Positions 594 to 17,239 of a DNA stretch of 64,000 nt are shown one piece after another. The translations under genes and the position numbers were made by a program. Under the pieces are notes generated by a model. That model did not search any database, was not told the DNA's origin, and saw only the letters and a program-made list of their open reading frames with translations. Every line of letters starts with the position of its first letter. The stretch's first letter is position 1. Origin of the DNA: Chthoniobacteraceae bacterium (GTDB taxonomy: Bacteria; Verrucomicrobiota; Verrucomicrobiia; Chthoniobacterales; Chthoniobacteraceae); the NCBI GenBank assembly GCA_028293625.1, contig JAQGOL010000033.1:1-64000 (forward strand), in the 5' to 3' direction.

Positions 594-3500
594 ATGCGCC
601 GCCACCCCTGGAGCCTTCTACTTTCCCTGCTTGCCGTTGTTTTGCTTAATGCGGTGCCGGCTTTGGCCAATGTAGCGCCTGAATTCATCCCGCCTGCCTC
701 CGTACCGGCATTGAGAGTGGGGGGAACTGCTCAGGATCTCGACCTGCGACCCCTGTTTCGCGATCCGGATGTCCTCGGCACGGCGGTCCGGGTAAGTGTC
801 CGCCTGGGGGCGACGATCAAGACCTTTGATATCGCCCTTTTTGATCAGGAGAAACCGATCACCGTCACCAATTTCCTAGCCTATTTGAATGCCGGACGCT
901 TCGATTCCAATTTTTTCCATCGTTCAGTCGCGGGGTTTGTTGTCCAGGGCGGCGGTTTTGCATGGAGCAGTGCGAACAACGTGGTGTCTGTGCCTACGTT
1001 TGAGAAGATCAAGAATGAACCGGGCATCTCGAATCTGCGGGGCACCGTAGCCATGGCCAAATTGGGCGGCGATCCGGATAGCGCTACCAGCCAGTGGTTC
1101 GTCAATCTGGCCGACAACTCCGGCAACCTGGATGCGCAAAATGGCGGGTTCACCGTTTTTGGGCGGGTCCTCGGGACCGGGATGACGCTGGTGGACGAAA
1201 TCGCGGCTCTGCCCGTCTACAATGCCGGGTCGCCCTTTGATTCGTTGCCGTTGAAGGGATACACGAGCGGCTCGATCACGCGGGTTTACACAGTGGAGAC
1301 CAACACGGCGCTCGTCCCGACCCTTAGTTTCAGCGCCGTTTCCAGCAATCCGAGCCTGGTTGGTGCCTCGATGACAGGAACAACGCTGCGGCTGACACCG
1401 GGTGCCTCGAGTGGCACCACCACCATTACCGTGAGCGCAACGGACCTCGACGGCGCCATCAAGGAGGTGGCCCTCACGATCAACGTCCTTGCACAGTCCG
1501 CCGGCTGGCATGCGGAAAAAGGACCCGATGGTGAATTCAACCTCTTCTCCCTGGATCGGGCCGACTCGAGCCCGCTCATCGAAAATCCGGTGCCCGTGCA
1601 CTGGGGACCGGTGTTCCTGAATACTCCATCGACTCGTAATTTCACGATAACGAACAAAGGACCGGCCGCCCTCGCCAGCTTTTCGATCACCCGCGCAGGC
1701 TCCAATCCCGACGATTTCGCCATTACCAGCGACGCCGGACCGAGCACTTTGGCGGGTGGCGCGAGCACCACTTTCACCGTTGTCTTTACGCCTTCGGCGA
1801 TCGGACCGCGCAGCGCGCTATTGCATCTAACAAGCAGTGATCCCAACGAGGCGTCCCTCGATATTGCCGTCTCCGGGACAGGCACGTCCCCCGACGACGT
1901 CATCCCGCCAACGCTAAGCCCGGCATCGCCCCAGACCCTGATCGCTGATGCAAGGCGGCTCGCCCAAATTCCCGATTGGCGCGGAACCCTCGTGACTGCA
2001 ACTGACAATAAGGAGGTCGTTTCTTTTACCCAAACGCCATTGCCGGGCAGCTTCCAACCGATTGGCGATTATTCCCTCATCTTTTCCGCCACGGACGCCG
2101 CCGGTAACACGAGCAGTGTGCAGAGCACACTCAAGGTGCTCTACGATCCGGCCACGATACCGCAACTCAGCCTGAGCGCGGCCCTCGGTGGGGCGGATGT
2201 CCCGGCGGCGGGCAATACCGATTTGCCCGCCGGCAGCTTTTTGAGCGCGTTCGGCACCCCGGCCATCAGCGATACCGGCAGTCTGGCCGCCCGTGTCACC
2301 ATTACCGCCGGCAAAGCCAGGCTCGCGGGGATCTACTGGGAAAATGAAGCCGGGGAAAACAAAATCGTTGCCCGTCAGAATCAACCTTCAAGCGGGACGA
2401 ATTTTAAGAGCTTTCGCGATCCGGTGCTCGCGCCTGGAGGGGCGATTGCGTTTGCGGCGACTCTCAACGGGCGCAAGGCGAACGAAGATGAAGGTCTTTG
2501 GACGAATCTCTTCGGCTCCCTTGCCCCGGTTCTGCGGGAGGGTGGAGAAATCCCGGGGCTGGGCGGACTGAAGCTCAAATCGATTACGACTATTTCTTTG
2601 GAAGACGACGCGTTGCTCGCTTTGGTAAAGCTCCTGCCGATGCCGGGGCTTGTGACGCCCGCGAATGACACTGCGTTGGTGCGTATCACGGGTCTTCAGG
2701 CCGGAAGATTGCTTGTACGAACCGGGGTTGCTTTTGACGGTTCACTCATCAAACAGATCAGCGTGTTTCAACCTGCCGCACGTTCTCCCGGGCAGGGGCG
2801 CTGGAGTTCAGGCAACAATGTCCTGGCGAAACTGACCCTGGCGGATCGGCGCACCGTTGTGGCCACCCTGCACAACGACGGCACTCAGGCCACCCTGCTG
2901 CAAACCCGGGCTGCCGGCGCCGGACTGGCGAGCCTGAGCCTGCCCGCGCTCGGCGGCTCAAGTGTCGCAGTGCTCGCCACCAAGGCCATCGCTCCCGGCA
3001 TTACCGCCGCCAATGATAGCGCGTTGTACTTTGCCCCCAACGGCACCGAATTTACGGACGTCATTCGCGAAGAACCCGGAGCGGGGAAATTCGCCAGCTT
3101 TTCGGATCCCGTCGTCAATGATCAGGGTGAGATGCTCTTTTTCGGAACGCGTCGTGGCGCTGTGGCAGGGAGCCCGAGTGTGACTGCTCTCTGGCAAATC
3201 AACCATCTTTCGCCGTTGCAACTTGTCGCCCAAATCGGCGGTCCGGCTGCCGACAAAGAAGGAAACCCGCTCGCGGATACCGTTTGGAGCACGTTCACCT
3301 CTTTTGCTTTGCCCGATGGATCCGGGCCGGTCTTTGTCGCCCAACTAAGCGGCCGTGCTGTCACGGGACAAAAGAAACTGGGGCTGTGGGCTGCGGACTC
3401 CGCGGGAAAGGTTAGGCAACTCCTGCGGACCGGCGACGATGTCCCCTTCCCCGCGGGCGCCAAACGTCTGACCGGCTTCACCATTCTCAATGCGCTGCCC

Positions 3501-3605
3501 GGCAGTTTTGGTGTGCGCCGCAGCTACAATGCTTCCGGCGCGCTGGCCCTCCAGGCGACTTTTGCCGATCGCACTCAGGCGATCTTGCGCGTGAACGTGC
3601 CGTAA
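594..3605 (+). CDS. Large secreted protein with cyclophilin-type peptidyl-prolyl isomerase domain
   Basis: The 1003-residue product begins with a signal peptide (cleavage probably after ALA, about residue 25), so it is exported. Residues about 75-225 form a cyclophilin domain: FFHRSVAGFVVQGGG carries the catalytic Arg of the family's FHR motif, followed by SQWFVNL and GFTVFGRVLGTGM. Residues about 235-300 look like a cadherin/Ig-type beta domain. Residues about 325-430 resemble a choice-of-anchor D domain (FTITNKGPAAL, FTPSAIGPRSALL). The C-terminal half repeats a NxxG...GLW-like pattern seen in large verrucomicrobial and planctomycete extracellular proteins. The isomerase is probably active; the role of the rest is unknown. 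The next gene, 53 bp downstream, is another secreted repeat protein. Confidence 0.85.
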   Translation: MRRHPWSLLLSLLAVVLLNAVPALANVAPEFIPPASVPALRVGGTAQDLDLRPLFRDPDVLGTAVRVSVRLGATIKTFDIALFDQEKPITVTNFLAYLNAGRFDSNFFHRSVAGFVVQGGGFAWSSANNVVSVPTFEKIKNEPGISNLRGTVAMAKLGGDPDSATSQWFVNLADNSGNLDAQNGGFTVFGRVLGTGMTLVDEIAALPVYNAGSPFDSLPLKGYTSGSITRVYTVETNTALVPTLSFSAVSSNPSLVGASMTGTTLRLTPGASSGTTTITVSATDLDGAIKEVALTINVLAQSAGWHAEKGPDGEFNLFSLDRADSSPLIENPVPVHWGPVFLNTPSTRNFTITNKGPAALASFSITRAGSNPDDFAITSDAGPSTLAGGASTTFTVVFTPSAIGPRSALLHLTSSDPNEASLDIAVSGTGTSPDDVIPPTLSPASPQTLIADARRLAQIPDWRGTLVTATDNKEVVSFTQTPLPGSFQPIGDYSLIFSATDAAGNTSSVQSTLKVLYDPATIPQLSLSAALGGADVPAAGNTDLPAGSFLSAFGTPAISDTGSLAARVTITAGKARLAGIYWENEAGENKIVARQNQPSSGTNFKSFRDPVLAPGGAIAFAATLNGRKANEDEGLWTNLFGSLAPVLREGGEIPGLGGLKLKSITTISLEDDALLALVKLLPMPGLVTPANDTALVRITGLQAGRLLVRTGVAFDGSLIKQISVFQPAARSPGQGRWSSGNNVLAKLTLADRRTVVATLHNDGTQATLLQTRAAGAGLASLSLPALGGSSVAVLATKAIAPGITAANDSALYFAPNGTEFTDVIREEPGAGKFASFSDPVVNDQGEMLFFGTRRGAVAGSPSVTALWQINHLSPLQLVAQIGGPAADKEGNPLADTVWSTFTSFALPDGSGPVFVAQLSGRAVTGQKKLGLWAADSAGKVRQLLRTGDDVPFPAGAKRLTGFTILNALPGSFGVRRSYNASGALALQATFADRTQAILRVNVP

Positions 3606-3658: not shown

Positions 3659-5470
3659 ATGCCACGCCTACTCGCCCTGCTCTTTTCATTCTTCTTTGTC
3701 ATTCTTTCATCCGTGCAGGCGCAAAGTGTCTTCGCGTTTGGTGGCACAGATGCCACAGTTGGAGAAGTAGGCGGCGCCTCGGGATTTCAGATCACGCGCA
3801 CCGGCGACACCACGGTGGCTGCCACCGTCCATGTGGTCTTTGGCGTGCCGGCGGTTCTTAATGGCACCTCGGCAGCGACCTACGGCGACGATTACTCCAG
3901 TTCTTTGGGCCAAATCAGCGATGTCACTTTCGATGCCGGCGAGACGAGCAAAGTCATTCCGGTGACCATTATTGACGACACGCTCTCCGAAGCCACCGAG
4001 CAGTTCCAGATCACCCTGAGCGCTTCGGGCAACAACTCTGTCAGCGATCAATCCAAGTTCCTCGTTACCATTTCTGATAACGAGCCGTCGGCCGGCACCT
4101 TCAAGTTTTCCCAGTTCACAGCGGACGTGGACTCCGGCTCCACGCTGACGCTGACGGTGAATCGGACGGATGGCAGCTTCGGCACCGCAACTGTCGAGTG
4201 GTCAACGAGCGGCGGCTTCGCAAGGAAGAGCGGTACACTGACTTTCGCGGATGGCGTCACTTCGCAGAGCTTCGATATTGCCATTCCCGAAGAAGCGGCA
4301 GGCTCGGCCAACTACGAGGTGGACATCAGCCTGGGAAATCCCACGGGCGGAACGAACCTGGGCGTGCCGACCTTCGTGGCCGCCACGGTGCATGTCCCTG
4401 TGGCGCCGGAATCGTACCTGGCGCAGACCGCCGGTTTCAGCGGTCTGCTGGGTGCCGATGATCTGGCCCATGGATATGGCTCCATTGCCGTGAATATCAC
4501 TTCCACCGGAAAATTAACCGGCAAACTGGTGCTGAACGGCGGCGCGCCAACCGTGCTGAAGGGAACCATCAATTCGAGTGGCGTTTACTCGCAAAACATC
4601 AGCGTAAAGAAGGGAGCTGTCGCCGTGACAAAGAGCGTTTCGCTGAAATTCGGCACGACGCAGGTTACCGGCACATTCGATGACGGCTCCGGCCGACCCG
4701 TTCGCAATATCACCGGCGAACGGAACCTGATCGTTGCCAAGAAAACCTCCGCCGCGGCGACGGGTTATTATACCTTTCGTCTTTTCAACACCTCGCTGGC
4801 CGGGGTCGGCTTCCGCGCGCCCGGCACCGTCACGGTTTTAAAAACCGGCAAGGTGACCTATAAAGGGACGCTGCCCGATGGGACCAAGGTTTCGCAAGGG
4901 GCCACCCTTTCCGCTTCCGGGAGTTTCTTCATTTCCATTCCGCTGTATAAGAAGAACAGCCTGGGCGAGTACCCGGGTTATTTCCAAGGGACAGCCGTGG
5001 CCGGCTTCAACAACAGCAGCCGTGGCTTTTCCGGCGATCTCTTCTGGACCAAGCCTGCTTCAGTCGCCCCGGCGCCCGGTGAGTTATACAAGACCGGTGT
5101 CTCCCTGGTGGACTGCCAGTTGCAGGCCCAGCCGTATGTGAAGCCGGCGGCCCAGCACCGGGCGCTGTCCACACTGGACACCTCGAACGGCAACGCACTC
5201 CTGGCCATTCGTGGTGGGGATCTGGCTGCGGAAATCAATCACGCCGCCACAGTCGATGCGAGCAACCATCTTTCGGTGACTGCTCCGGGCGATGATGCGA
5301 TCAAGGTAACCCTTGTGGCGGCAAATGGCACCTTTCACGGCACTTTCATCCATCCGGTCGACCACAAGATCCGTGCCTTTTCCGGAGTGGTCCTGCAAGG
5401 CTCCGGCTTTATCCAGGGATTCTTCCCCGGGATCGATGTGGCCGGCGTGGTGAGCATCAACGCCCAGTAA
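3659..5470 (+). CDS. Secreted Calx-beta domain protein
   Basis: The 603-residue protein has a signal peptide (MPRLLALLFSFFFVILSSVQA). One or two Calx-beta domains follow at residues about 20-135 (TYGDDYSS, FDAGETSKVIPVTIIDD, EATEQFQITLS) and about 140-250 (GTATVEWSTSGG, DGVTSQSFDIAIPEE). Calx-beta folds are Ca2+-binding or adhesive beta modules in extracellular proteins. The C-terminal 350 residues repeat a pattern of the type GKLTGKLVLNGG, GVTVLKTGKVTYKGTL and FSGVVLQG, a beta-rich repeat I have seen in verrucomicrobial surface proteins but cannot name. It lies 53 bp after the cyclophilin protein and is probably co-transcribed. It converges with the TolC-like gene. Confidence 0.8.
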   Translation: MPRLLALLFSFFFVILSSVQAQSVFAFGGTDATVGEVGGASGFQITRTGDTTVAATVHVVFGVPAVLNGTSAATYGDDYSSSLGQISDVTFDAGETSKVIPVTIIDDTLSEATEQFQITLSASGNNSVSDQSKFLVTISDNEPSAGTFKFSQFTADVDSGSTLTLTVNRTDGSFGTATVEWSTSGGFARKSGTLTFADGVTSQSFDIAIPEEAAGSANYEVDISLGNPTGGTNLGVPTFVAATVHVPVAPESYLAQTAGFSGLLGADDLAHGYGSIAVNITSTGKLTGKLVLNGGAPTVLKGTINSSGVYSQNISVKKGAVAVTKSVSLKFGTTQVTGTFDDGSGRPVRNITGERNLIVAKKTSAAATGYYTFRLFNTSLAGVGFRAPGTVTVLKTGKVTYKGTLPDGTKVSQGATLSASGSFFISIPLYKKNSLGEYPGYFQGTAVAGFNNSSRGFSGDLFWTKPASVAPAPGELYKTGVSLVDCQLQAQPYVKPAAQHRALSTLDTSNGNALLAIRGGDLAAEINHAATVDASNHLSVTAPGDDAIKVTLVAANGTFHGTFIHPVDHKIRAFSGVVLQGSGFIQGFFPGIDVAGVVSINAQ

Positions 5471-5552: not shown

Positions 5553-7025
5553 CTACTCCATGATGACGTTGTAACGGCGGAGCGTGGTGCCGGTCTGGCG
5601 GCGGTACTCGGAGAGCGCTTTGTTATAGTCGGCACGCGAGCGAAGTTCCGCCTGCTCGGCTTCCGCCAGTTTTTTCTGGAGTTCGAGCACTTCAAAGGTG
5701 ATGCCGCTGCCGGTGCGGAGCCGAATCTCGCCCGCATCGAGGCTTTCCTGGGCGAGAACATGGGCTTCACTTGTCGAGGCAATCCGCTCGCGCGAGGTAA
5801 TGATCTGGCCCGAGGCGTTGTCGACATCGACAACGATTTGCTGCTCGATGCGCTGCAGGTTGATCACTGCCTGGGCGGAAGAAAGCTGGGCGGATGCCAC
5901 GCTCGCGCGGCCCGCATTATTGGGAATCGGCACGCTGAAAATGGCGCCGGCGCTCCAGGAGGTGCGATCGCCGCGGCCAACGTGCTCAAAGCTTCCGCCA
6001 AACCCATTGTCGACGCCGATCAGGTTAAGGCTCGCGTTGAGGTCAAGCCGGGGGAGCGCCTGGTTTTTGGTAAAAGCGAGATTGATATGCCGGTTGCGGA
6101 TTTCCAGAAGCGCCTGCTGGTAATCGGGACGCAGCGAAATCGCTTCCGTAATCCCGGCGGGGACATCGGCCTTAAAGGAATGCGAGGGTGGCGGCTCAAT
6201 CTCCACCTGCACGGAGAGCATCTGCTCAAGATCGTGGGTAACGAGTTGTTTAAGAAGGTTTTCGTTATCCTTGACCTGGCGCCGGGCGAGGATGACGCCT
6301 TCCTGGCGGGCGGCGGCTTCGGCGCGGGCGGTGGTGACATCAAGTTGCGCCATGACGCCGATCTGGGCGCGTTTGGAGTTGTCGCTGAGAAGCTGCAAGG
6401 CGAGTTGCCGCGAGCGTTCAGCCACGCGCAACGTTTCATGGGCGAGATGGAGTTCGTTATAGACAAAATCGGTCGTCGTCACCGTGTCGATGATCCGCTG
6501 GCGCAATTGCCATTCGGAAACGAGCACGTTGTTCCGGGCAATGCGGATTTGGGCAAGGTTGGCGGAAGTGCCAAAGCCGCGCAGCAGCGGTTGATTAAGG
6601 CCGATGCTTGCGTTGGAATTAATCTCGTCGCCCAGATCGCCACTGCGGCCCGGAGTATTGATGGCGCCGATGCCAAGGTCATAGCTAAGGCCCCAAGGGG
6701 TAAGTCCGCTCAGGCCGGTGGTAATGGAGTCGGTCCGGGCAGTGCCGCTGCCAGGCAGGTGTTGCCCGTTGGTAAAGAGGTCGCGCACGGTGTTCTCGCT
6801 GCGGGACGCGGAGATATCGAAGTTCGGATCGAAGCGGCCGATTTCGCGGATAACATTTTGCCGGGCGATCCGGGGTTGGAAACGCTCGACTTCGATCGTG
6901 AAATTCTTAGCAAGTGCCATTCGAACTGCCGACTCGATAGTGAGATGCAAAATGCCAGGGCGGGAGACGGTCTCGCCCGCGACGGCGGCAAGGGGCAGAA
7001 ACAGGAGGAGGGCGGAACGAAACAT
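5553..7025 (-). CDS. TolC-family outer membrane protein
   Basis: The 490-residue protein starts with a signal peptide (MFRSALLLFLPLAAVAG). It has the TolC/OEP architecture of two long helical repeats: AVRMALAKNFTIEVERFQPRIA near the N-terminus, then ARNNVLVSEWQLRQRIIDTV and long coiled-coil helices with LDVTTARAEAAARQEGV in the middle, and the equivalent motif near the C-terminus (GSGITFEVLELQKKLAEAEQ). TolC trimers form an outer-membrane channel and periplasmic tunnel for type I secretion or RND efflux. No membrane-fusion protein or inner-membrane pump lies beside it, so its partner must be encoded elsewhere. It is transcribed convergently to the Calx-beta gene and divergently from the TPR protein. 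Confidence 0.88.
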   Translation of the reverse strand: MFRSALLLFLPLAAVAGETVSRPGILHLTIESAVRMALAKNFTIEVERFQPRIARQNVIREIGRFDPNFDISASRSENTVRDLFTNGQHLPGSGTARTDSITTGLSGLTPWGLSYDLGIGAINTPGRSGDLGDEINSNASIGLNQPLLRGFGTSANLAQIRIARNNVLVSEWQLRQRIIDTVTTTDFVYNELHLAHETLRVAERSRQLALQLLSDNSKRAQIGVMAQLDVTTARAEAAARQEGVILARRQVKDNENLLKQLVTHDLEQMLSVQVEIEPPPSHSFKADVPAGITEAISLRPDYQQALLEIRNRHINLAFTKNQALPRLDLNASLNLIGVDNGFGGSFEHVGRGDRTSWSAGAIFSVPIPNNAGRASVASAQLSSAQAVINLQRIEQQIVVDVDNASGQIITSRERIASTSEAHVLAQESLDAGEIRLRTGSGITFEVLELQKKLAEAEQAELRSRADYNKALSEYRRQTGTTLRRYNVIME

Positions 7026-7239: not shown

Positions 7240-8352
7240 ATGGCCGGCCGCTCCCCCATTTCCCGACAAACCTTAGGGAAAACTTTCCTTATTTCGCTCA
7301 GTGTACTGGGTATTGGCGCGCTCATTGAGCTCGGTGTGGCGGGATGGACTTTTGCGGATCGTTATCGGGTGCTGACTTCCCAGACGCCCAGAATCCGCCG
7401 CACGCTTCCTTCAGGAGTGCCGAAGACGCCTCCCCCCGAGGTCCTGGATGTCATGGCGGTAGGCGACACGGCGCTTGCCGATGCCGCGCCGGGAGATGCG
7501 CCGGTGCCGCCGGCCGCCACCCCCGAACCTGTCACCACGCCGATTGTTCCCCCGGCCAAACCGGTGCCGATTCCGCTGGCGAAACTCGATCAGAAAGCGC
7601 CTCCCGGCACGCGTTACCAGGAGTTGGTTGAACAGGGCAAAATTTTGCGGAGCCGCGGCGACATGAGCAACGCGCTGACCAAACTGCGCGAGGCGCAGGT
7701 GCTTGAGCCGGGCACGCCGCAGGCCATTACGGAGCTTGCCCTGACATTTGAAAAGATGGGGTTGATGGAAAAAGCGGCGGAGCAATGGAAACGGGTCCAT
7801 GAGCTTGGAGAAGTGACCGGGGCTTACTTCCAGGCGGCTGAAATGCGGCTGAAACAAAGCCAGTCAATGGCGATAAAGGCGGCCTCGACTGTTCTGGAAC
7901 AACCAGGCTCGGGCGTGAACCCGCAGGCCACGATCGGCATTGGCGATATCGAGCTTGAAAACGGGAACGATCCGGCCGCGTTAAAGAAATTCACCTTAAA
8001 AGTGCCGCTCAAGCTGCGCCCCCGTGCGCATGTGGACGTGCATGATGTGGTCATCCACGTGCTTTTTTATGACAGCGTAGGCGGAAAATCGGTGGTGCAG
8101 ACCAGCGCCAATGTGAATTCCCGCTGGGCGAGTCCGCCACCCGACTGGACCGAGGGCGACACGGAAGTGTTGGAGGTCGATTACAGCCAGCCGCGTCCCG
8201 ATCCCAACGAGATCACACACGAGGATCGGAAATATTTTGGCTACAACGTGCGTCTCTACTATAAGGGCGTCCTCCAAGATACGCGTGCGGAACCCACTCG
8301 CCTGGCAGCACAATTTGTTGCCCCGCAAACGCTTGAGAATCCTCCCCCTTAA
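7240..8352 (+). CDS. Membrane-anchored TPR protein of the pseudokinase operon
   Basis: The 370-residue product has one N-terminal membrane helix (about residues 14-36, FLISLSVLGIGALIELGVAG). A Pro/Ala-rich linker follows, then a TPR-like helical region (about 120-215, YQELVEQGKILRSRGDMSNALTKL, LTFEKMGLMEKAAEQW). A beta-rich C-terminal domain begins near 235 (FTLKVPLKLRPRAHVDVHDVVIHVLFYD). I do not recognise that domain. I chose the ATG at 7240; a TTG at 7180 with purine-rich sequence before it is in frame and would add 20 residues. The stop TAA overlaps the ATG of the next gene (TAATG), so translation is probably coupled. It looks like a scaffold working with the downstream receiver-pseudokinase fusion. 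Confidence 0.7.
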   Translation: MAGRSPISRQTLGKTFLISLSVLGIGALIELGVAGWTFADRYRVLTSQTPRIRRTLPSGVPKTPPPEVLDVMAVGDTALADAAPGDAPVPPAATPEPVTTPIVPPAKPVPIPLAKLDQKAPPGTRYQELVEQGKILRSRGDMSNALTKLREAQVLEPGTPQAITELALTFEKMGLMEKAAEQWKRVHELGEVTGAYFQAAEMRLKQSQSMAIKAASTVLEQPGSGVNPQATIGIGDIELENGNDPAALKKFTLKVPLKLRPRAHVDVHDVVIHVLFYDSVGGKSVVQTSANVNSRWASPPPDWTEGDTEVLEVDYSQPRPDPNEITHEDRKYFGYNVRLYYKGVLQDTRAEPTRLAAQFVAPQTLENPPP

Positions 8353-10484
8353 TGAAAATTCTTTTGGTTGATGACGACGCTGAGTTCGTTGCCTTGCTGC
8401 TTGCCGGATTAAGCGATTTACCCGGACACGATGTCCGTGCCGCCACCAATGCCGGTATGGCGCTGCAGGCCGCCGCGAGCATGGGTGGCGTCGATTTGCT
8501 TATCAGCGATGTGGTGATGGAGCCGATGAACGGCTTTGTGCTCCGCGAGCAAATCCTCAAGCGGTTCCCGGCGGCGCGCGTGATTTTCATTAGCGGCTTC
8601 GATCTCAGTGATTACGCCGAACAAACACGCTTCAATCAAGTTGTTCAGAAGCCTTTTGAGCTCGCGACGCTGCTCGCCGCCATGGAACGCGAGTTCGCGC
8701 CCCCCACTCCTGTCGTGGCGACGCCCGCGGTGGTAAAGCCCGTTACGGCGCGTTTGGCGAAAAGTGGTGTGATTCAACCGTTTGCCCCGGTCGGAACCCC
8801 GGCTGTTGTGGCAGTTGGCAGGGTCGCGCGGGTGGTGCTTCCCTCCGAAGTCGGCGCCGCTCCGGCGAGCGCGGTTCGGGCACCGGTGGAAAGTGCGGTC
8901 GCTGACACGCCCGAGGCGCTGATTGGAACCACGCTTGGTTCCTATCACGTCATCAGCCTGCTTGGTAAAGGGACGTGGGGCAATGTCTACGCGGCCATTC
9001 AGATTTCAATCAATCGCGAGGTTGGCCTCAAGATTCTCGACGGCGCGCAGGCGCGTGATCCCGAGCAAAAGGCGCGTTTTATCGCCAATGCCCGCGCCAA
9101 GGCGCACGTGCAGCATCCTTCGATTCTTTCCGTGTATGAAGCGGGCGAAATTGAAGGGCGGATTTTCTACGCGCACGAATACGTCGATGGGCTCAACCTG
9201 GCCGAGTTTCAAAACCGGCAAAAGACGATCGACGAACCGGGCGCGTTAAAAGTCCTGCGGGCGGTGGGCGATGGACTCGCTTATCTGCACACCCATAAGA
9301 TTGCGCATTCGCCGCTGCTGGCCGCGCATATTTACGTCGCGGTCGGCGGGCAGACACGGCTTTCGAACATCGCCGTGCATCAGACCACGGAGGCGTTGAC
9401 GCCTGAATTGGAGATTCAGGCGCTTGGACGGATCATGCTTTCAGTCGTGGGCGCCGCGCAGGCGTTGTCGCCTGGATTACGCACGCTTCTTAGCCGCATG
9501 ATCCAGACCGGGCCCAACGCCATTACCGGTTGGGGGCCGCTGCTGCAGGGGATCAAAGCGCTCGAACCAAAAGTCGTGCCGGTGGAAGCTGCCCGGATGA
9601 GCGCGCAGGATCAGGCGGCGATTGCGGCGGTGGAAGCGGCGCGCAAAGCGCAAAAGACCTCGCTGCGCCTTACGGTCACGACCATGGCGCTCACGCTGAT
9701 TGTCGTGACCTGGGGCGTCTGGTACAAGGTCTTCCGTTCCAACGAACGCCATCTCAATACCCAGATCCATATTCCGGCGGGTGACTATATTGTCGGCGAC
9801 AACGAGAAGGTGCATCTCGACCAGTTCTGGATCGATAAATACGAGGTGACCATTGGTCAGTATGCGAAGTTTCTCGAATATCTGGCGACGCATCCGACCG
9901 CGGAAGGTGACTTTAATCACGAAAAACAGCCCCGCCAGCTCGATCACCGGCCGGAGTATTGGGATATCTATTACACCAACGCCGTCCGCGGAGAAACGGC
10001 GCACGGGGTGCCGATGTCGCTCAATTCGCCCATGATCACGGCCACCTGGTGGGATGCTTATGCGTATGCCAAGTGGAAGGGGCGCGAACTCCCTACCGAG
10101 CAGGAATGGGAGGCGGCGGCACGCGGGCCCCAGGGGCTTCTTTATCCGTGGGGCAACCAGTTTGATCCCAAGCGGGTCAACGCCAATGGCGATTTTAATC
10201 CGCAAAAACCCGACGCGCTCGGGACCGTGGACGGCTTTAATTTCTGGGGGGACGCCGACATGATGAAAGGCGACAAGAGCTACTTTGATGTGGTTGGCAT
10301 GGCAGGCAATGTGAGCGAATGGGTGGCATGGCCCAAAAAGGCAACCGCGCCCGTCTATAAAGGCGGCAATTACACTTCCGCCGATGTGCGCCTCGACAAG
10401 CGTGTCGCCGATCACCCCGCCAACAAAGGGGAAGAATTTATTGGATTTCGCACTATTACCAGAACCCCACCCCTCCCCAAATGA
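8352..10484 (+). CDS. Receiver - pseudokinase - TM - SUMF1-like fusion protein
   Basis: The 710 residues hold four parts. Residues 1-115 are a complete response-regulator receiver domain (acidic D7-D9, phosphoacceptor D53, S81, K100). Residues 191-405 have a Ser/Thr kinase fold: GKGTWG loop at 205-210 and a VGLKIL lysine at 227. However, the catalytic HRD loop reads HSPLLAAHI (319-327) and the DFG position reads LSN, so it should be catalytically dead. A membrane helix spans about 438-458, with positive residues before it. Residues 470-706 form a SUMF1/FGE-sulfatase fold (IPAGDYIVG, DKYEVTIGQYAKFL, RELPTEQEWEAAARG, GMAGNVSEWV). The domain has no cysteine, so it cannot be a true formylglycine-generating enzyme. 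Topology puts receiver and pseudokinase in the cytoplasm and the SUMF1 domain in the periplasm. It is the middle gene of a coupled trio. Confidence 0.85.
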   Translation: MKILLVDDDAEFVALLLAGLSDLPGHDVRAATNAGMALQAAASMGGVDLLISDVVMEPMNGFVLREQILKRFPAARVIFISGFDLSDYAEQTRFNQVVQKPFELATLLAAMEREFAPPTPVVATPAVVKPVTARLAKSGVIQPFAPVGTPAVVAVGRVARVVLPSEVGAAPASAVRAPVESAVADTPEALIGTTLGSYHVISLLGKGTWGNVYAAIQISINREVGLKILDGAQARDPEQKARFIANARAKAHVQHPSILSVYEAGEIEGRIFYAHEYVDGLNLAEFQNRQKTIDEPGALKVLRAVGDGLAYLHTHKIAHSPLLAAHIYVAVGGQTRLSNIAVHQTTEALTPELEIQALGRIMLSVVGAAQALSPGLRTLLSRMIQTGPNAITGWGPLLQGIKALEPKVVPVEAARMSAQDQAAIAAVEAARKAQKTSLRLTVTTMALTLIVVTWGVWYKVFRSNERHLNTQIHIPAGDYIVGDNEKVHLDQFWIDKYEVTIGQYAKFLEYLATHPTAEGDFNHEKQPRQLDHRPEYWDIYYTNAVRGETAHGVPMSLNSPMITATWWDAYAYAKWKGRELPTEQEWEAAARGPQGLLYPWGNQFDPKRVNANGDFNPQKPDALGTVDGFNFWGDADMMKGDKSYFDVVGMAGNVSEWVAWPKKATAPVYKGGNYTSADVRLDKRVADHPANKGEEFIGFRTITRTPPLPK

Positions 10485-11356
10485 ACCGTCTCCTCCTTTG
10501 TTTGCTCTCCTTTGTCTGCGCTTCCGCGGCGCTTACTGCCCACGGGCAGATCGACGTGAATCTTCAGATCAAACGGCGAAACTTCATCCGTTATGAACCG
10601 CTCCTGGCGACGGTCACCATCACGAATCTTTCCGGCCGCGATCTCAAGCTTGAGGATGCTGATAACCAATGGTTCGGATTCCAGATCAATGGAATCGACG
10701 GTTCGCTCGTGGCGCCCAACGATCCAAATTACCATCTTGAAGCGCTCGATTTAAAAGTCGGTGAAAGCGTGAAGCGGACGGTCAATCTCAACACGCTTTT
10801 TTCCATCAGCGAGTTTGGCCATTACAAAATCAAGGCCACCATTTATTCCGCCCAATACCAGAAATTCTTCGTCTCCAAATCGAACACCTTCGGTCTCAAT
10901 GATGGGCGGCTGATTTGGCAGCAATCGGTCGGGGTGCCGGATGGCCAGCCGAATGCCGGTGATACGCACGTCGTCTCAGTGCTAGCCTTTCAGAGCGACG
11001 AGAAAGAGTATCTGTATGCCAGGATCGAGGATCGCGAGAAGAGCATCATCTACTGCACGCACAAGCTCTCTTACATGGTCGACAGTCAGCCGCCGCAAAT
11101 CCAGCTCGACGCCAATAACAATCTTTTCGTGCTTCAGTTGCTTGGACCGAAGTCGTACGTGCTGACCAAAATCGGCATCAACGGCGAGGTGCTTGCCCAA
11201 AACAGTTACAGCGCTCCCAAGGCCCATCCTTATATGCGGCGCCTGGCCGATGGCAAACTTCAGATCGTCGGCGCCCGCCGCGATGCGATCGAGACAGCCG
11301 CCGCGCAGGTTGAGACTCCAAAGCTTTCAGATCGTCCCGCCAACCTGCTGAAGTAA
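10481..11356 (+). CDS. Secreted protein of unknown function, third gene of the pseudokinase operon
   Basis: The start overlaps the previous stop (ATGA), so it is translationally coupled to the receiver-pseudokinase gene. The 291-residue product has a signal peptide ending near ALTAHGQ. Residues about 25-130 form a beta-rich domain (FIRYEPLLATVTITNLSGRD, LDLKVGESVKRTVNLN) resembling bacterial Ig-like modules. Residues about 145-265 (VVSVLAFQSDEKEYLYARIED, LSYMVDSQPPQIQLDANNN) look like a small propeller or beta-sandwich. I do not recognise the family. Export plus coupling to a protein with a periplasmic SUMF1-like domain suggests the two meet in the periplasm; this is an inference. Confidence 0.7.
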   Translation: MNRLLLCLLSFVCASAALTAHGQIDVNLQIKRRNFIRYEPLLATVTITNLSGRDLKLEDADNQWFGFQINGIDGSLVAPNDPNYHLEALDLKVGESVKRTVNLNTLFSISEFGHYKIKATIYSAQYQKFFVSKSNTFGLNDGRLIWQQSVGVPDGQPNAGDTHVVSVLAFQSDEKEYLYARIEDREKSIIYCTHKLSYMVDSQPPQIQLDANNNLFVLQLLGPKSYVLTKIGINGEVLAQNSYSAPKAHPYMRRLADGKLQIVGARRDAIETAAAQVETPKLSDRPANLLK

Positions 11357-13034: not shown

Positions 13035-13949
13035 TCAGAACTTCAGGGTGACGATGCGCCGGTTGCGGGTATCGGCGACGTGGATCCGGTTTTTTGAATC
13101 GAGCACGATGCCCCAGGGGGTGGCGAACTCGCCTTCGCCGCTGCCGGTTTTGCCAAACCGGGCGAGCAGGCGGCCATCGGAGGTGACCTGGGAAAGCCGG
13201 CCCGCTCCGTATTCGATCACGTAAAGGAGGCCGTCGCCGCCGAATGCGATGTCGTAGGGCAACTCAAAGTTGAGCGGCGCGCCTTCCCTGCCGAGCAACC
13301 CGAGATATTTACCGTCGTCGTTGAAGAGCATGACGCGGTTGTTGATGGCATCGGCCACATAAAGGCGGCCGTCGCGCCATGCCAGGCCGGAAGGGCGCTG
13401 GAATTCTCCCGGCCCGGTGCCGAACTTTCCAAAACTGACCAGCCATTTGCCTTCCCTGGTGAATTTCTGGATCCGGTCGTTGCCGCCATATTCACACACG
13501 TAAAGGTTCTCCTGGGCGTCCTTGCAAATGCCGACCGGGTAAATGAATTCGCCGGGCCCCTCCCCCTTTTTGCCTGACTGAAAAAGGAGCGTTCCTTTTT
13601 GATCAAACCAGGCGAGCCGATGGTAATGGGTGTCGCATACCACGACCCGGCCATCGTTGAGAATGACGATCCCTTCGGGTTTTCCCACGCTGACATCGAG
13701 CATTTTCCATTGCTGGCGAAGCTTGCCGTCGGCCTGATAAATCAGCACACGGCCTGCTGTATCAAGCGTGGCGAGGGAATCGTCGGAGCCGACCGCCACG
13801 CTGCGCGGCGTTGGGAGCATGGCGCCATCCGAAGGAAGTACCCATGCGCGCCATTCCCTGGCTTGCAGGACCGGCGCCGCGGACTGGTGGCAGGCGCCAA
13901 GGAGCAGCGCAAAAAAACAGGAGGCGGCGCTCCATTTTGGAAACTTCAT
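13035..13949 (-). CDS. NHL-repeat lipoprotein co-translated with an ABC importer
   Basis: The start at ATG 13949 overlaps the stop of the upstream ATPase gene (ATGA, 13946-13949). The 304-residue product has a lipoprotein signal with lipobox LLGAC (Cys at residue 20), so it should be acylated. The remainder is an NHL-type beta-propeller: repeated units such as GKKGEGPGEFIYPVGICKD, FGKFGTGPGEFQRPSGLAWR and FGKTGSGEGEFATPWGIVLD, each followed by a VAD-N-R or similar strand. NHL propellers bind proteins, sugars or RNA. The coupling to an ABC importer suggests an extracytoplasmic accessory role, for example substrate capture, though that is inference. A longer upstream frame inside the ATPase gene is out-of-frame noise. 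Confidence 0.82.
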   Translation of the reverse strand: MKFPKWSAASCFFALLLGACHQSAAPVLQAREWRAWVLPSDGAMLPTPRSVAVGSDDSLATLDTAGRVLIYQADGKLRQQWKMLDVSVGKPEGIVILNDGRVVVCDTHYHRLAWFDQKGTLLFQSGKKGEGPGEFIYPVGICKDAQENLYVCEYGGNDRIQKFTREGKWLVSFGKFGTGPGEFQRPSGLAWRDGRLYVADAINNRVMLFNDDGKYLGLLGREGAPLNFELPYDIAFGGDGLLYVIEYGAGRLSQVTSDGRLLARFGKTGSGEGEFATPWGIVLDSKNRIHVADTRNRRIVTLKF

Positions 13950-14869
13950 GGGACAATACGTAGTGTGGCGTGCATGCCGGGAAAAAGCAGCGGAGCGGCC
14001 GGACGATGGAAAAACGTGCGCGATTCCCCACTGACGGGGTGACGCAGCGCCGCCTCGGCTACCGATCCGCGGGACCGGATCGATTCCACGATGAATCCGC
14101 CATTTTCCGCCGGGGAAACAAGGAGCTGCTCGGGACGAATGCATCGCGCGGTCTCCATCGGGGCGTCCAGCCAGAGGCGCGCGTCATCGGGTTCCAGCCA
14201 GTTGCCGGCGCCGAGAAAGTTCATCAATTCCGGCGTGGCGGGCTGCATATAAAGATCAGTCACCAGGCCCTGATGCAGGACGGTGCCTTCCTTTAAACAA
14301 ATGACCTGAGATGCCTCGCCGAGCACCGTCTCCGGCACATGGGTGGAAAAAATCAGGGATGCGCCTGTTTGGGAAATGTGCTCCCGGATCAGCTGCCAGT
14401 ATTTGGCCGCGCGGGCTGGATCGACGTGGACCAGCGGTTCGTCCATGACCAGGACCGGGGAATTGGTGGCCAGGGCGCGCGCGACCGAGAGCCGCGATTG
14501 CTCGCCCTGGGAGAGTTCGTCCGGGCGCGAATCGGCTTTGTGCTGAAGATCAAATGAAGCAAGGAGCGGCTCGACATCGTCCGTGAAACCATTGGCGATT
14601 TCCAAATGTTCCCGGACCGTCGAGTGCGACCAGAGGCCGCCGTTTTGCGGAACCCAGGCGCTGTTTTCCACGCCGCCGATGAGGCGTCCCCGGGTTGGAA
14701 CCTCGAAGCCAACGAGGATGTTTAAGAGCGACGTTTTGCCCGCGCCGGACCATCCGATGACGGCGGTGACGCCATTAGAAATATCGAGTGAGATGTCACG
14801 CAGCCTGTCGGGTTCCAGGGAGACGTGATCCAGTTTCCAGATAGGATGATTGGCCACGGATGCGTGCAT
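13946..14869 (-). CDS. ABC importer ATP-binding protein (FbpC/ThiQ-like)
   Basis: This is the 307-residue ATPase of the importer. Walker A is GWSGAGKT (39-46), the signature is LSQGEQSRLSVARAL and Walker B is PVLVMDEPLVHVDP. The last 80 residues form a TOBE-like regulatory domain (CIRPEQLLVSPAENGG), typical of the iron/thiamine/polyamine importer subclass. The start overlaps the permease gene by 74 bp. The residues just after this start (WKLDHVSLEPDRLRDISLDI) match the first strands of the fold, so the overlap is real. Upstream lie permease and binding protein, downstream the NHL lipoprotein. Confidence 0.9.
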   Translation of the reverse strand: MHASVANHPIWKLDHVSLEPDRLRDISLDISNGVTAVIGWSGAGKTSLLNILVGFEVPTRGRLIGGVENSAWVPQNGGLWSHSTVREHLEIANGFTDDVEPLLASFDLQHKADSRPDELSQGEQSRLSVARALATNSPVLVMDEPLVHVDPARAAKYWQLIREHISQTGASLIFSTHVPETVLGEASQVICLKEGTVLHQGLVTDLYMQPATPELMNFLGAGNWLEPDDARLWLDAPMETARCIRPEQLLVSPAENGGFIVESIRSRGSVAEAALRHPVSGESRTFFHRPAAPLLFPGMHATLRIVP

Positions 14870-16229
14870 AGAGTCCCCGGCCGGTCGCGGTCAACAGAAG
14901 AACCAGCAGCGGCACCGAGACGGCCGCGCAGATCATGGCGGAAAGCACGGCGGTCTGCCCGTAATGGGAGAGATTATGGAGGCGGGCAATCACAGGCGTC
15001 ATGCCGATCGGGGCAAGCAGGGTCGAGGCGGTAAATTCAAAGTAACCCCAGCAAAAGAGCAGGAACAGCGACCACCAGCGGCGCCGTCCATCGAGGTGCC
15101 AGACAAGCCGGTTGTTTTTGAGCATCCGGGCAATATGCAATGCCGGGGCGGGCCGCGTGGCATTGCAAAGCCACCGCAGGCAGAGCGCCAGGGGGAGCAG
15201 CAAAAATGTGAGAGCCACAAAAAGCGGCACCGGCGTGTCGTACAAAGCCCTCAATGGGCGCGTTTGAAAACCGGCCAGAAGCAGAAGCGCGAGCACGAGC
15301 CCGCCAAGCATGCCGGGCGCCCCGAGCAGCCAGCCAACTTTTGGAGAGCTCCCGCGCTCCCCGCCGGTCTTCTTTGAAAAACCGGCAATACTCCACGACA
15401 AACCGGCCGCGCCGGTGGCAAAGAAAAGGCTCGTGCCAATGTCCCGGATCAGCAGCGCATTCCCCCGGAGAGCCTGGAAACCGGAGAGCGCTTCCCTGAT
15501 CACCAATGCAAGCGGACAGAGGGCGCCGGTTGCCGCCGCGGCCACCAGATAAAACCAAAAGCCGCAACGCGCCACACGGCCCGCGGGTTTGAATCCCGTG
15601 CCTGGCACGGCCCGGGAACGCGCCTGTGGATTGCCTCTTGCCACGAGCGCGCCGAGAAGCACCGCCTGCACGGTGGCCGGCACGGCAACCAATCGGAGCG
15701 TTTCTTTAAGAGCAAGGCCGCCGGCCTGGGCATCAAACAGAACCACCGGCCAGGTCTTAAGACTCCACATGGCGGCCAATTCGAATTCGCCGAAGCTCAA
15801 AAGAAAGACCAAGGCGAAAGCGATCCATGGACCCGCGCCAAGGCCGGCGAAGAAGAAACGCTGACTGGCCAGCGCCGAGTTCCTTTTTAAAAGCCGGTAG
15901 CAGTGCATTCCCTCGACGCCAAGGGGCGGCGGCAGGAAATAAAGCGCGAGAACCGCCACGGGCATCAGGCGCACCACGAGTGCCGCCGCGTAAATCAACT
16001 CGTTCCAACCCGGCCGCATGGTGATGGCCAGGATCGCGCGCGCCCAGGCGTAGCCGGTCAGGAAGGAAGGCATCAGGCACGGCGCAATCAACAACGTCCA
16101 AAGAAGGTTTTGAATGCGGCCGCGGCGGCTGGCGATCAGGCGAATTGCGCCCATGGCCAGCCATAGCGAAACTCCGCTGACCGCGCCCGCCCTGCCGAGC
16201 CCGGCAACAGTTTGAAGCAGGATGCTCAC
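14796..16229 (-). CDS. ABC importer permease, two fused halves (FbpB/ThiP-like)
   Basis: I chose the GTG at 16229, which overlaps the preceding stop as GTGA and has GGAG upstream; an ATG at 16262 would overlap the binding-protein gene by 37 bp. The 477-residue product has about 12 membrane helices in two homologous halves. Each half carries a permease coupling region, for example ALASQRFFFAGLGAGPWIAFALVF in the first. Double-length permeases of this kind occur in FbpB (Fe3+), ThiP (thiamine) and 2-aminoethylphosphonate systems. Substrate cannot be fixed from sequence. Confidence 0.85.
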   Translation of the reverse strand: MSILLQTVAGLGRAGAVSGVSLWLAMGAIRLIASRRGRIQNLLWTLLIAPCLMPSFLTGYAWARAILAITMRPGWNELIYAAALVVRLMPVAVLALYFLPPPLGVEGMHCYRLLKRNSALASQRFFFAGLGAGPWIAFALVFLLSFGEFELAAMWSLKTWPVVLFDAQAGGLALKETLRLVAVPATVQAVLLGALVARGNPQARSRAVPGTGFKPAGRVARCGFWFYLVAAAATGALCPLALVIREALSGFQALRGNALLIRDIGTSLFFATGAAGLSWSIAGFSKKTGGERGSSPKVGWLLGAPGMLGGLVLALLLLAGFQTRPLRALYDTPVPLFVALTFLLLPLALCLRWLCNATRPAPALHIARMLKNNRLVWHLDGRRRWWSLFLLFCWGYFEFTASTLLAPIGMTPVIARLHNLSHYGQTAVLSAMICAAVSVPLLVLLLTATGRGLYARIRGQSSYLETGSRLPGTRQAA

Positions 16230-17239
16230 CGGAGATACTCCGACTTGAGCCAGGCGAGGCATTCCGCATGCGCCGTCCCGAGTCTATTAAGCGGGATAGC
16301 CGACTCCGCCCAATGCTTCAACTCGAGCACTTCCTGCGGCAGAAGGGTCTCCGGGGGAAGTGTTCCAAGTGGAATCTGGCGGGACCTGGAGCGGGCCAGC
16401 GCCAGTTCGGTATTCGCGGAAAGTAAAAAATCGGCGAGCTTTCGCGCATCAGCCATTCGCCGGCTGCCATGGATAAGGCCCACCGTGTTGGGAATGCAGA
16501 TGGTTTCACCGCCTTCGAGCCGGAGCGGCCGCATGGCCACCGGTTTGCCTTCATCCCTCGCCTCAAAAAAATCGTCCGTGTCGGTGAACCCCGCAACGCA
16601 AACGCCCGCCGCCACCGCATCTTTGACCGCCGCGTTTCCATTGAGTTCGCGGACACCGCCGACGCGCCACTGCTGATGCCATGCCTTGGTCTTTTCAGGA
16701 CCCCACTTTTGCCAAAGCACGCTGTAATGGGTCAGCGTGGTGCCATAGAGCGGCTTGGCAATCGCCCAGCGTGAAAGATCGCCCGGAGTCGATTGCATGC
16801 CATCGGGTTTTTCGACCGCATCCGTGTTAAAAATACAAACGCGCAGACGGGCCGCGAACCCGGTCCAGCGTCCATCCGGATCTTTGAATCCGCCAGGAAT
16901 TCGGGCGTAACCGGATCCTTTGTAGGGCTCAAGCAGACCGCAATCGGCCAGTCTGAGCGTGCCAAGGAGTTCATTGTTCCAGAAGAGGTCGCAGCGCGGC
17001 GCGTCCTTTTCCTTCACAAGCAACTCGACGAGACCGAGTGATTTGGTGGCTTCGGTATCGAACCGGATTGCCACCGGGATGCCGCTTTGGCGCTCAAACT
17101 CACGCAGGATGGACTCCGAATAAATCGAGTCGTGCGCGCAATAAACAACCAATGGCTGCGGGCCGCTTCGCCAGAACAGACCCCAGAAAATCAACAAACC
17201 CGCGGCCAGGGCCACGGGGACATAATAATGAGACCTCAT
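16226..17239 (-). CDS. ABC importer extracellular solute-binding protein
   Basis: The start at ATG 17239 gives MRSHYYVPVALAAGLLIFWGLFW, a membrane anchor or uncleaved signal. The 337 residues resemble family 1 / Fe3+-thiamine binding proteins: LVVYCAHDSIYSESILREFE near the mature N-terminus, RCDLFWNNE (hinge strand), and PNTVGLIHGSRRMADARKLADFLLS near the C-terminus. The absence of an obvious YY iron-binding pair leaves the ligand open: iron, thiamine or phosphonate are all possible. It starts 22 bp after the coiled-coil gene and is coupled to the permease by a GTGA overlap. Confidence 0.82.
   Translation of the reverse strand: MRSHYYVPVALAAGLLIFWGLFWRSGPQPLVVYCAHDSIYSESILREFERQSGIPVAIRFDTEATKSLGLVELLVKEKDAPRCDLFWNNELLGTLRLADCGLLEPYKGSGYARIPGGFKDPDGRWTGFAARLRVCIFNTDAVEKPDGMQSTPGDLSRWAIAKPLYGTTLTHYSVLWQKWGPEKTKAWHQQWRVGGVRELNGNAAVKDAVAAGVCVAGFTDTDDFFEARDEGKPVAMRPLRLEGGETICIPNTVGLIHGSRRMADARKLADFLLSANTELALARSRSRQIPLGTLPPETLLPQEVLELKHWAESAIPLNRLGTAHAECLAWLKSEYLR

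Follow-up and report, generated by a model that had tools for sequence, protein, structure and literature searches.

We analysed the first 64,000 nucleotides of contig JAQGOL010000033.1 of a Chthoniobacteraceae bacterium (Verrucomicrobiota; GenBank assembly GCA_028293625.1); this whole stretch is called the window below. On its forward strand, positions 7240-11356 hold three overlapping genes. The first (7240..8352, +) encodes a membrane-anchored tetratricopeptide repeat (TPR) protein of 370 aa, with the start at 7240 backed by alignment of N-termini. The second (8352..10484, +) encodes a 710-aa fusion of a receiver domain, a degraded Ser/Thr kinase fold, a transmembrane helix and a SUMF1-like domain, and the third (10481..11356, +) encodes a secreted beta protein of two parts, 291 aa long, which we call SEC. 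The stop codon of the TPR gene and the start codon of the fusion share the sequence TAATG (8350-8354), and the end of the fusion and the start of SEC share ATGA (10481-10484). A preliminary description of the locus had proposed three coupled genes, and we saw its coordinates and both overlaps in the sequence. It had further suggested that a catalytically dead kinase transmits receiver phosphorylation across the membrane. We find that both enzyme folds of the fusion have lost their catalytic centres, and that the phospho-acceptor of the receiver has been lost repeatedly.

Searches of the 710-aa protein with Pfam models gave three matches above the cut-offs: Response_reg at residues 3-111 (E 3e-12), Pkinase at 198-320 (E 4e-16; 59.7 bits vs a cut-off of 31.7) and FGE-sulfatase at 484-702 (E 8e-33; 114.6 bits vs a cut-off of 23.3). 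The protein thus has a Hanks-type kinase fold and a SUMF1-type domain by curated thresholds, with the kinase match covering only positions 1-122 of the 263 in the profile. By Pfam and alignment, the receiver occupies residues ~1-113 (8352..8690, +). It is followed by the pseudokinase domain (residues ~195-400; 8934..9551, +), a conserved, presumably cytoplasmic juxtamembrane segment (404-436; 9561..9659, +), a transmembrane helix (~438-456; 9663..9719, +) and the SUMF1/formylglycine-generating enzyme (FGE)-like domain, predicted to be periplasmic (470-706; 9759..10469, +). The helix, placed by hydropathy, has positive charge on its kinase side; it barely exceeds the threshold in the window copy and is clearer in most homologues, in keeping with the single membrane helix described before. 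The linker between receiver and kinase (8703-8930) varies from 7 to ~260 residues across homologues and is rich in Pro, Ala and Val, with a repeat-like appearance in some. A DUF4388 match was seen in three homologues.

Homologue counts here and below are samples, all from Verrucomicrobiota. The fusion was present in most of the 38 related genomes searched, with alignments that span all three domains down to ~30% identity. Named genomes that carry it are Chthoniobacter flavus Ellin428, a Chthoniobacter flavus metagenome-assembled genome (MAG) and one further verrucomicrobial MAG. Domain models recognised the kinase in 20-21 of 26 homologues and the SUMF1-type domain in all 26. Profile searches found the core of pseudokinase, transmembrane helix and SUMF1 domain class-wide, and the receiver in most of the orders sampled. 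The preliminary description had asked whether the three segments stay together, and had named a frameshift joining separate genes as an explanation that would undo its proposal. Relatives from many other genera and families encode all three domains in one intact protein, so that a frameshift or assembly artefact is ruled out.

An active Hanks-type Ser/Thr kinase has both the HRD and the DFG aspartate, and the fusion has neither. By alignment, the catalytic loop of the window copy is H319-SPLLAAH-I, with HSP (319-321) in place of HRD, and the DFG site is N339-I-A (339-341). The HRD aspartate is absent from all 61 aligned homologues, where the position is occupied by P (28), A (8), L (6), V (5) or other residues; at the DFG aspartate the same 61 have N (52), G (5), H (3) or D (1). 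No homologue with an intact HRD aspartate plus DFG was found, and the earlier reading of HSPLLAAHI as the loop of a catalytically dead kinase therefore holds for the family. Ten further kinases that the same query found in the window's genome served as a control; all had HRD[LI]KPxN, and nine had DFG. The loss is common to several orders, which rules out the recent decay of a single kinase.

The kinase fold is also truncated. The stretch from the DFG site to the juxtamembrane segment is ~63 residues long in the window copy and ~54-64 residues across homologues. A full kinase C-lobe needs roughly double this length; the fusion therefore lacks the activation segment and a large part of the C-lobe. 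Mean pairwise identity was 45% in the SUMF1 domain, 40% in the kinase N-lobe and 28% in the truncated C-lobe; this ranking suggests that the fold has been kept, not the chemistry. A kinase fold that had acquired a new chemistry on a cytoplasmic target, like SelO (AMPylation) or SidJ (glutamylation), would be consistent with the retention of the VAIK lysine (K227, kept in the window copy) in 27 of 62 homologues and with the almost uniform replacement of the DFG aspartate by Asn within the order. We nevertheless regard this as very improbable: K227 is lost in over half of the homologues, of ~61 only 5 retain the Mg-binding Asn (326) and only 2 the catalytic-loop Lys, the missing parts of the domain are those named above, and the catalytic loop shows no new conserved motif.

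The SUMF1-like domain has lost its catalytic centre as well. In the window copy, S676 and L681 stand where FGE has its catalytic cysteines, and no homologue aligned there has a cysteine at either position; an intact FGE example from the same genome (L001) reads GGSFLCAEHYC. A function as formylglycine-generating enzyme is thus ruled out. The domain had been described as free of cysteine, and in the window copy it contains none. This does not extend to the whole family, since 1-5 cysteines occur towards the C-terminus of some homologues, never at the catalytic positions. SUMF2 is an FGE paralogue that has the SUMF1 fold and lacks FGE activity. It was the closest solved structure by sequence (1y4j), with PorK also among the matches, and it differs from the fusion in being a stand-alone protein of the eukaryotic secretory pathway.

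Similar domains were seen in other settings. Two proteins of family f5, which lacks the trio, have a SUMF1-like domain 34-38% identical to that of the window (L085:6589-7959, -, and L086:3731-5005, +). A helix joins it to a different N-terminal part that resembles DUF4388, so that the outside module is the same and the inside module another. In the window's own genome, a 941-aa protein on contig C9 (L190:2413-5238) combines a second degraded kinase (HGEVSPWN, NFG) with a hydrophobic helix and an FGE-like domain. It is clearly distinct from the window fusion, and a lone receiver gene adjoins it on the opposite strand.

The receiver of the window copy is complete, as described, with the phospho-acceptor D53 accompanied by D7, D8, S81 and K100. 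Among 46 full-length homologues, the D53 position holds D in 22, E in 15 and G, N, A, Q, S or R in the rest; the phospho-acceptor aspartate is thus missing in 24. The best tree implies 10 changes of state at this position, of which at least 7 are forced by well-supported branches; a tree of 31 rows implies 6. By comparison, the aspartate is missing in 2.0% of receivers overall (3,111 of 152,269; PMC12632262). The Akkermansia-like copies have no receiver at all; since the receiver is present in most orders sampled, its absence there is probably a loss. Like the known pseudo-receivers and aspartate-less receivers (PMC12632262, PMC4395418), the family has lost the phospho-acceptor in about half of its members. 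It differs from them in that the site of the window copy is complete and in that the loss recurs inside one conserved architecture.

Given an aspartate missing from 24 of 46 homologues and at least 7 changes, receiver phosphorylation cannot be the shared function. Judged from the sequences, it would be dispensable for the common function, and the window copy may still use phospho-input. The mechanism put forward at the outset, with the dead kinase carrying the effect of receiver phosphorylation to the periplasmic domain, is therefore not supported as a general one and could apply to the window copy. In a full switch of this kind, D53 would receive its phosphate from a histidine kinase, and by way of the dead kinase the resulting change would alter the SUMF1 domain and its partners on the other side of the membrane. 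We consider such a switch rather doubtful. It fits the conservation of D7, D8, D53, S/T81 and K100 in the window copy and its closest relatives, and of D53 in about half of the full-length homologues, but not the excess of aspartate loss over receivers in general or the receiver-less Akkermansia-like copies. In addition, no histidine kinase gene adjoins the trio among the window open reading frames that were read.

The first gene had been taken to encode a membrane TPR protein, and an N-terminal helix (~11-29), a Pro/Ala-rich stretch and a weak TPR region (129-190) agree with this. Its conserved C-terminal domain (226-365), predicted to be periplasmic, has no Pfam match. SEC, previously a secreted unknown, has a signal-like N-terminus, an immunoglobulin (Ig)-like sandwich (22-142) and a beta-rich C-terminal part (143-265). 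The sandwich was modelled with a mean predicted local distance difference test (pLDDT) score of 81. The N-terminal part matches many Ig-like folds, the best being RbmA (Z 11.9 over 108 residues, root-mean-square deviation 2.8), a likeness of fold only. No Pfam entry scored above cut-off for the SEC family, and a sequence search of the PDB with the family gave nothing convincing. Profile comparison gave no support for a common origin of the C-terminal domain of the TPR protein and SEC. The SEC family was found in 256 of 388 Verrucomicrobiota genomes, including 167 of the 197 of the order, nearly always in single copy. With a single copy in two thirds of the sampled genomes, it is a candidate signature protein of Verrucomicrobiota.

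In other lineages, genes for an amidase, an L,D-transpeptidase, or a metallophosphoesterase with a heptosyltransferase lie next to the SEC gene, hinting at envelope biology. An envelope role of this kind would also suit a receptor whose SUMF1-like domain, the most conserved part of the fusion, recognises an external ligand (a glycan, a peptidoglycan fragment or a peptide) and signals inward through receiver and pseudokinase. We think a receptor improbable, as no ligand site was identified in the domain and the cytoplasmic side has no DNA-binding or enzymatic output domain.

The conservation of the gene order was determined in a class-wide set of 59 loci with the kinase-SUMF1 protein, counting only where the contig has room. 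Of the 59, a minority had been chosen by way of the SEC gene, a selection biased towards SEC adjacency; loci chosen by way of the fusion itself show the same pattern. Class-wide, the fusion is immediately preceded by the TPR gene in 44 of 53 loci and immediately followed by the SEC gene in 39 of 58. Restricting the set to 39 relatives, from the order, the Akkermansia-like group and family f17, raises these proportions to 33 of 34 and 38 of 39; the three genes are nearly always neighbours there, a point that the preliminary description had proposed to check. On either side of the fusion, adjoining genes most commonly overlap by 4 bp. Other orders of the class often keep the TPR gene beside the fusion, with the SEC gene usually located away from them. 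By family, f14, f17 and f24 have both fusion and SEC, f18 and f23 have SEC alone, and f13, f15 and f16 have neither.

The N-lobe and the start of the C-lobe of the fusion can be aligned with those of Hanks-type kinases such as PknE, PknI and StkP (E down to 2e-17), from which it differs by its lack of the HRD and DFG aspartates and its truncated C-lobe. EssB/YukC of type VIIb secretion (T7SSb) is a transmembrane pseudokinase that acts as a non-catalytic scaffold and, like the fusion, has a cytoplasmic pseudokinase degraded in all motifs with a shortened activation loop (PMC12599244). However, it lacks a receiver and a SUMF1-like domain and belongs to Firmicutes, where it occurs with a secretion machine not seen at the window locus. 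PorK/GldK of type IX secretion (T9SS) shares with the fusion an FGE fold without the two catalytic cysteines, located outside the inner membrane, and PorK uses this repurposed fold as a docking hub for a partner (PMC12421860). T9SS genes are absent beside the window locus, and the fusion scores 44.3 bits with the PorK/GldK model TIGR03525, far under the cut-off of 350. Nor does it lie in a T7SSb operon, and its extracytoplasmic part is SUMF1-like, not homologous to that of EssB. Because of these differences we place it outside both groups, and propose by analogy that it may function like them.

Named families of bacterial pseudokinases are ActPs1-3, GLW, CP1, DYD and DLHK; a review of bacterial pseudokinases names neither Verrucomicrobia nor FGE domains (PMC12599244). 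We found no description of the domain combination in the open-access papers searched, which does not prove that none exists; the preliminary description had not met with one either.

Two dead enzyme folds, long kept on either side of a membrane together with co-translated periplasmic partners, lead us to favour a scaffold or conformational coupler. With somewhat better than even confidence, we propose that the trio forms an envelope-spanning non-catalytic scaffold or signal-coupling complex to which phosphorylation is a lineage-specific input. The fusion would span the inner membrane, its receiver and pseudokinase facing the cytoplasm and its dead SUMF1-like domain the periplasm. Receiver and pseudokinase together would form a platform that binds a cytoplasmic partner, and conformation or recruitment, not phosphate, would be passed on via the juxtamembrane segment and the helix. 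Outside, the SUMF1 fold could serve as docking hub for the TPR protein, membrane-anchored with a periplasmic body, and for the Ig-like SEC where it is encoded alongside. Where the receiver is intact, the complex may be adjusted through phosphorylated D53; in copies without D53 the receiver would be a fixed interaction module. More tentatively, the trio may be a phylum-characteristic, single-copy envelope machine with a role in export or wall assembly, whose transmembrane pseudokinase, with its receiver inside and its repurposed FGE hub outside, would link the state of the cytoplasm to a TPR/Ig-like complex in the periplasm.

Several observations weigh against such a complex. The persistence of K227 leaves room for nucleotide binding, and the topology of the fusion is read from hydropathy only. 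The AlphaFold2 model of the fusion, made with four sequences, had a mean pLDDT of 50; the receiver was best (mostly 70-88), and confidence elsewhere was too low to judge the kinase loop. The SEC gene is located elsewhere in several genomes. The middle gene can be reduced, as in TPR-receiver-SEC (L171) and TPR-receiver/kinase-SEC (L175), or absent with TPR and SEC genes still together (L170, L172 and L155). The fusion is therefore not the only possible bridge between the two.

Neighbours of the trio are a divergent gene for a TolC-type outer-membrane protein (5553..7025, -) and gpsA. The TolC-type gene also adjoins the trio in several relatives of the same family and is not essential to the module. 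Upstream lie genes for a large secreted protein with a cyclophilin-like start, as read from the sequence (594-3605, +), and a large secreted Calx-beta protein (3659-5470, +). Positions 13035-14144 (-) encode an NHL-type beta-propeller with a ScyF-like match, and beside it lie genes for an ATP-binding cassette (ABC) ATPase and a large permease-like protein (13946-16262, -).

The functions of bacterial pseudokinases are almost all unexplained, and the family described here makes the role of a non-catalytic pseudokinase directly testable. Its architecture is fixed, with two dead enzyme folds flanking the membrane, its partners are conserved, and losses of receiver and modules form a natural series; the group also has a cultured member, Chthoniobacter flavus. 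With SEC, a conserved secreted protein family of Verrucomicrobiota outside Pfam coverage has now been named.
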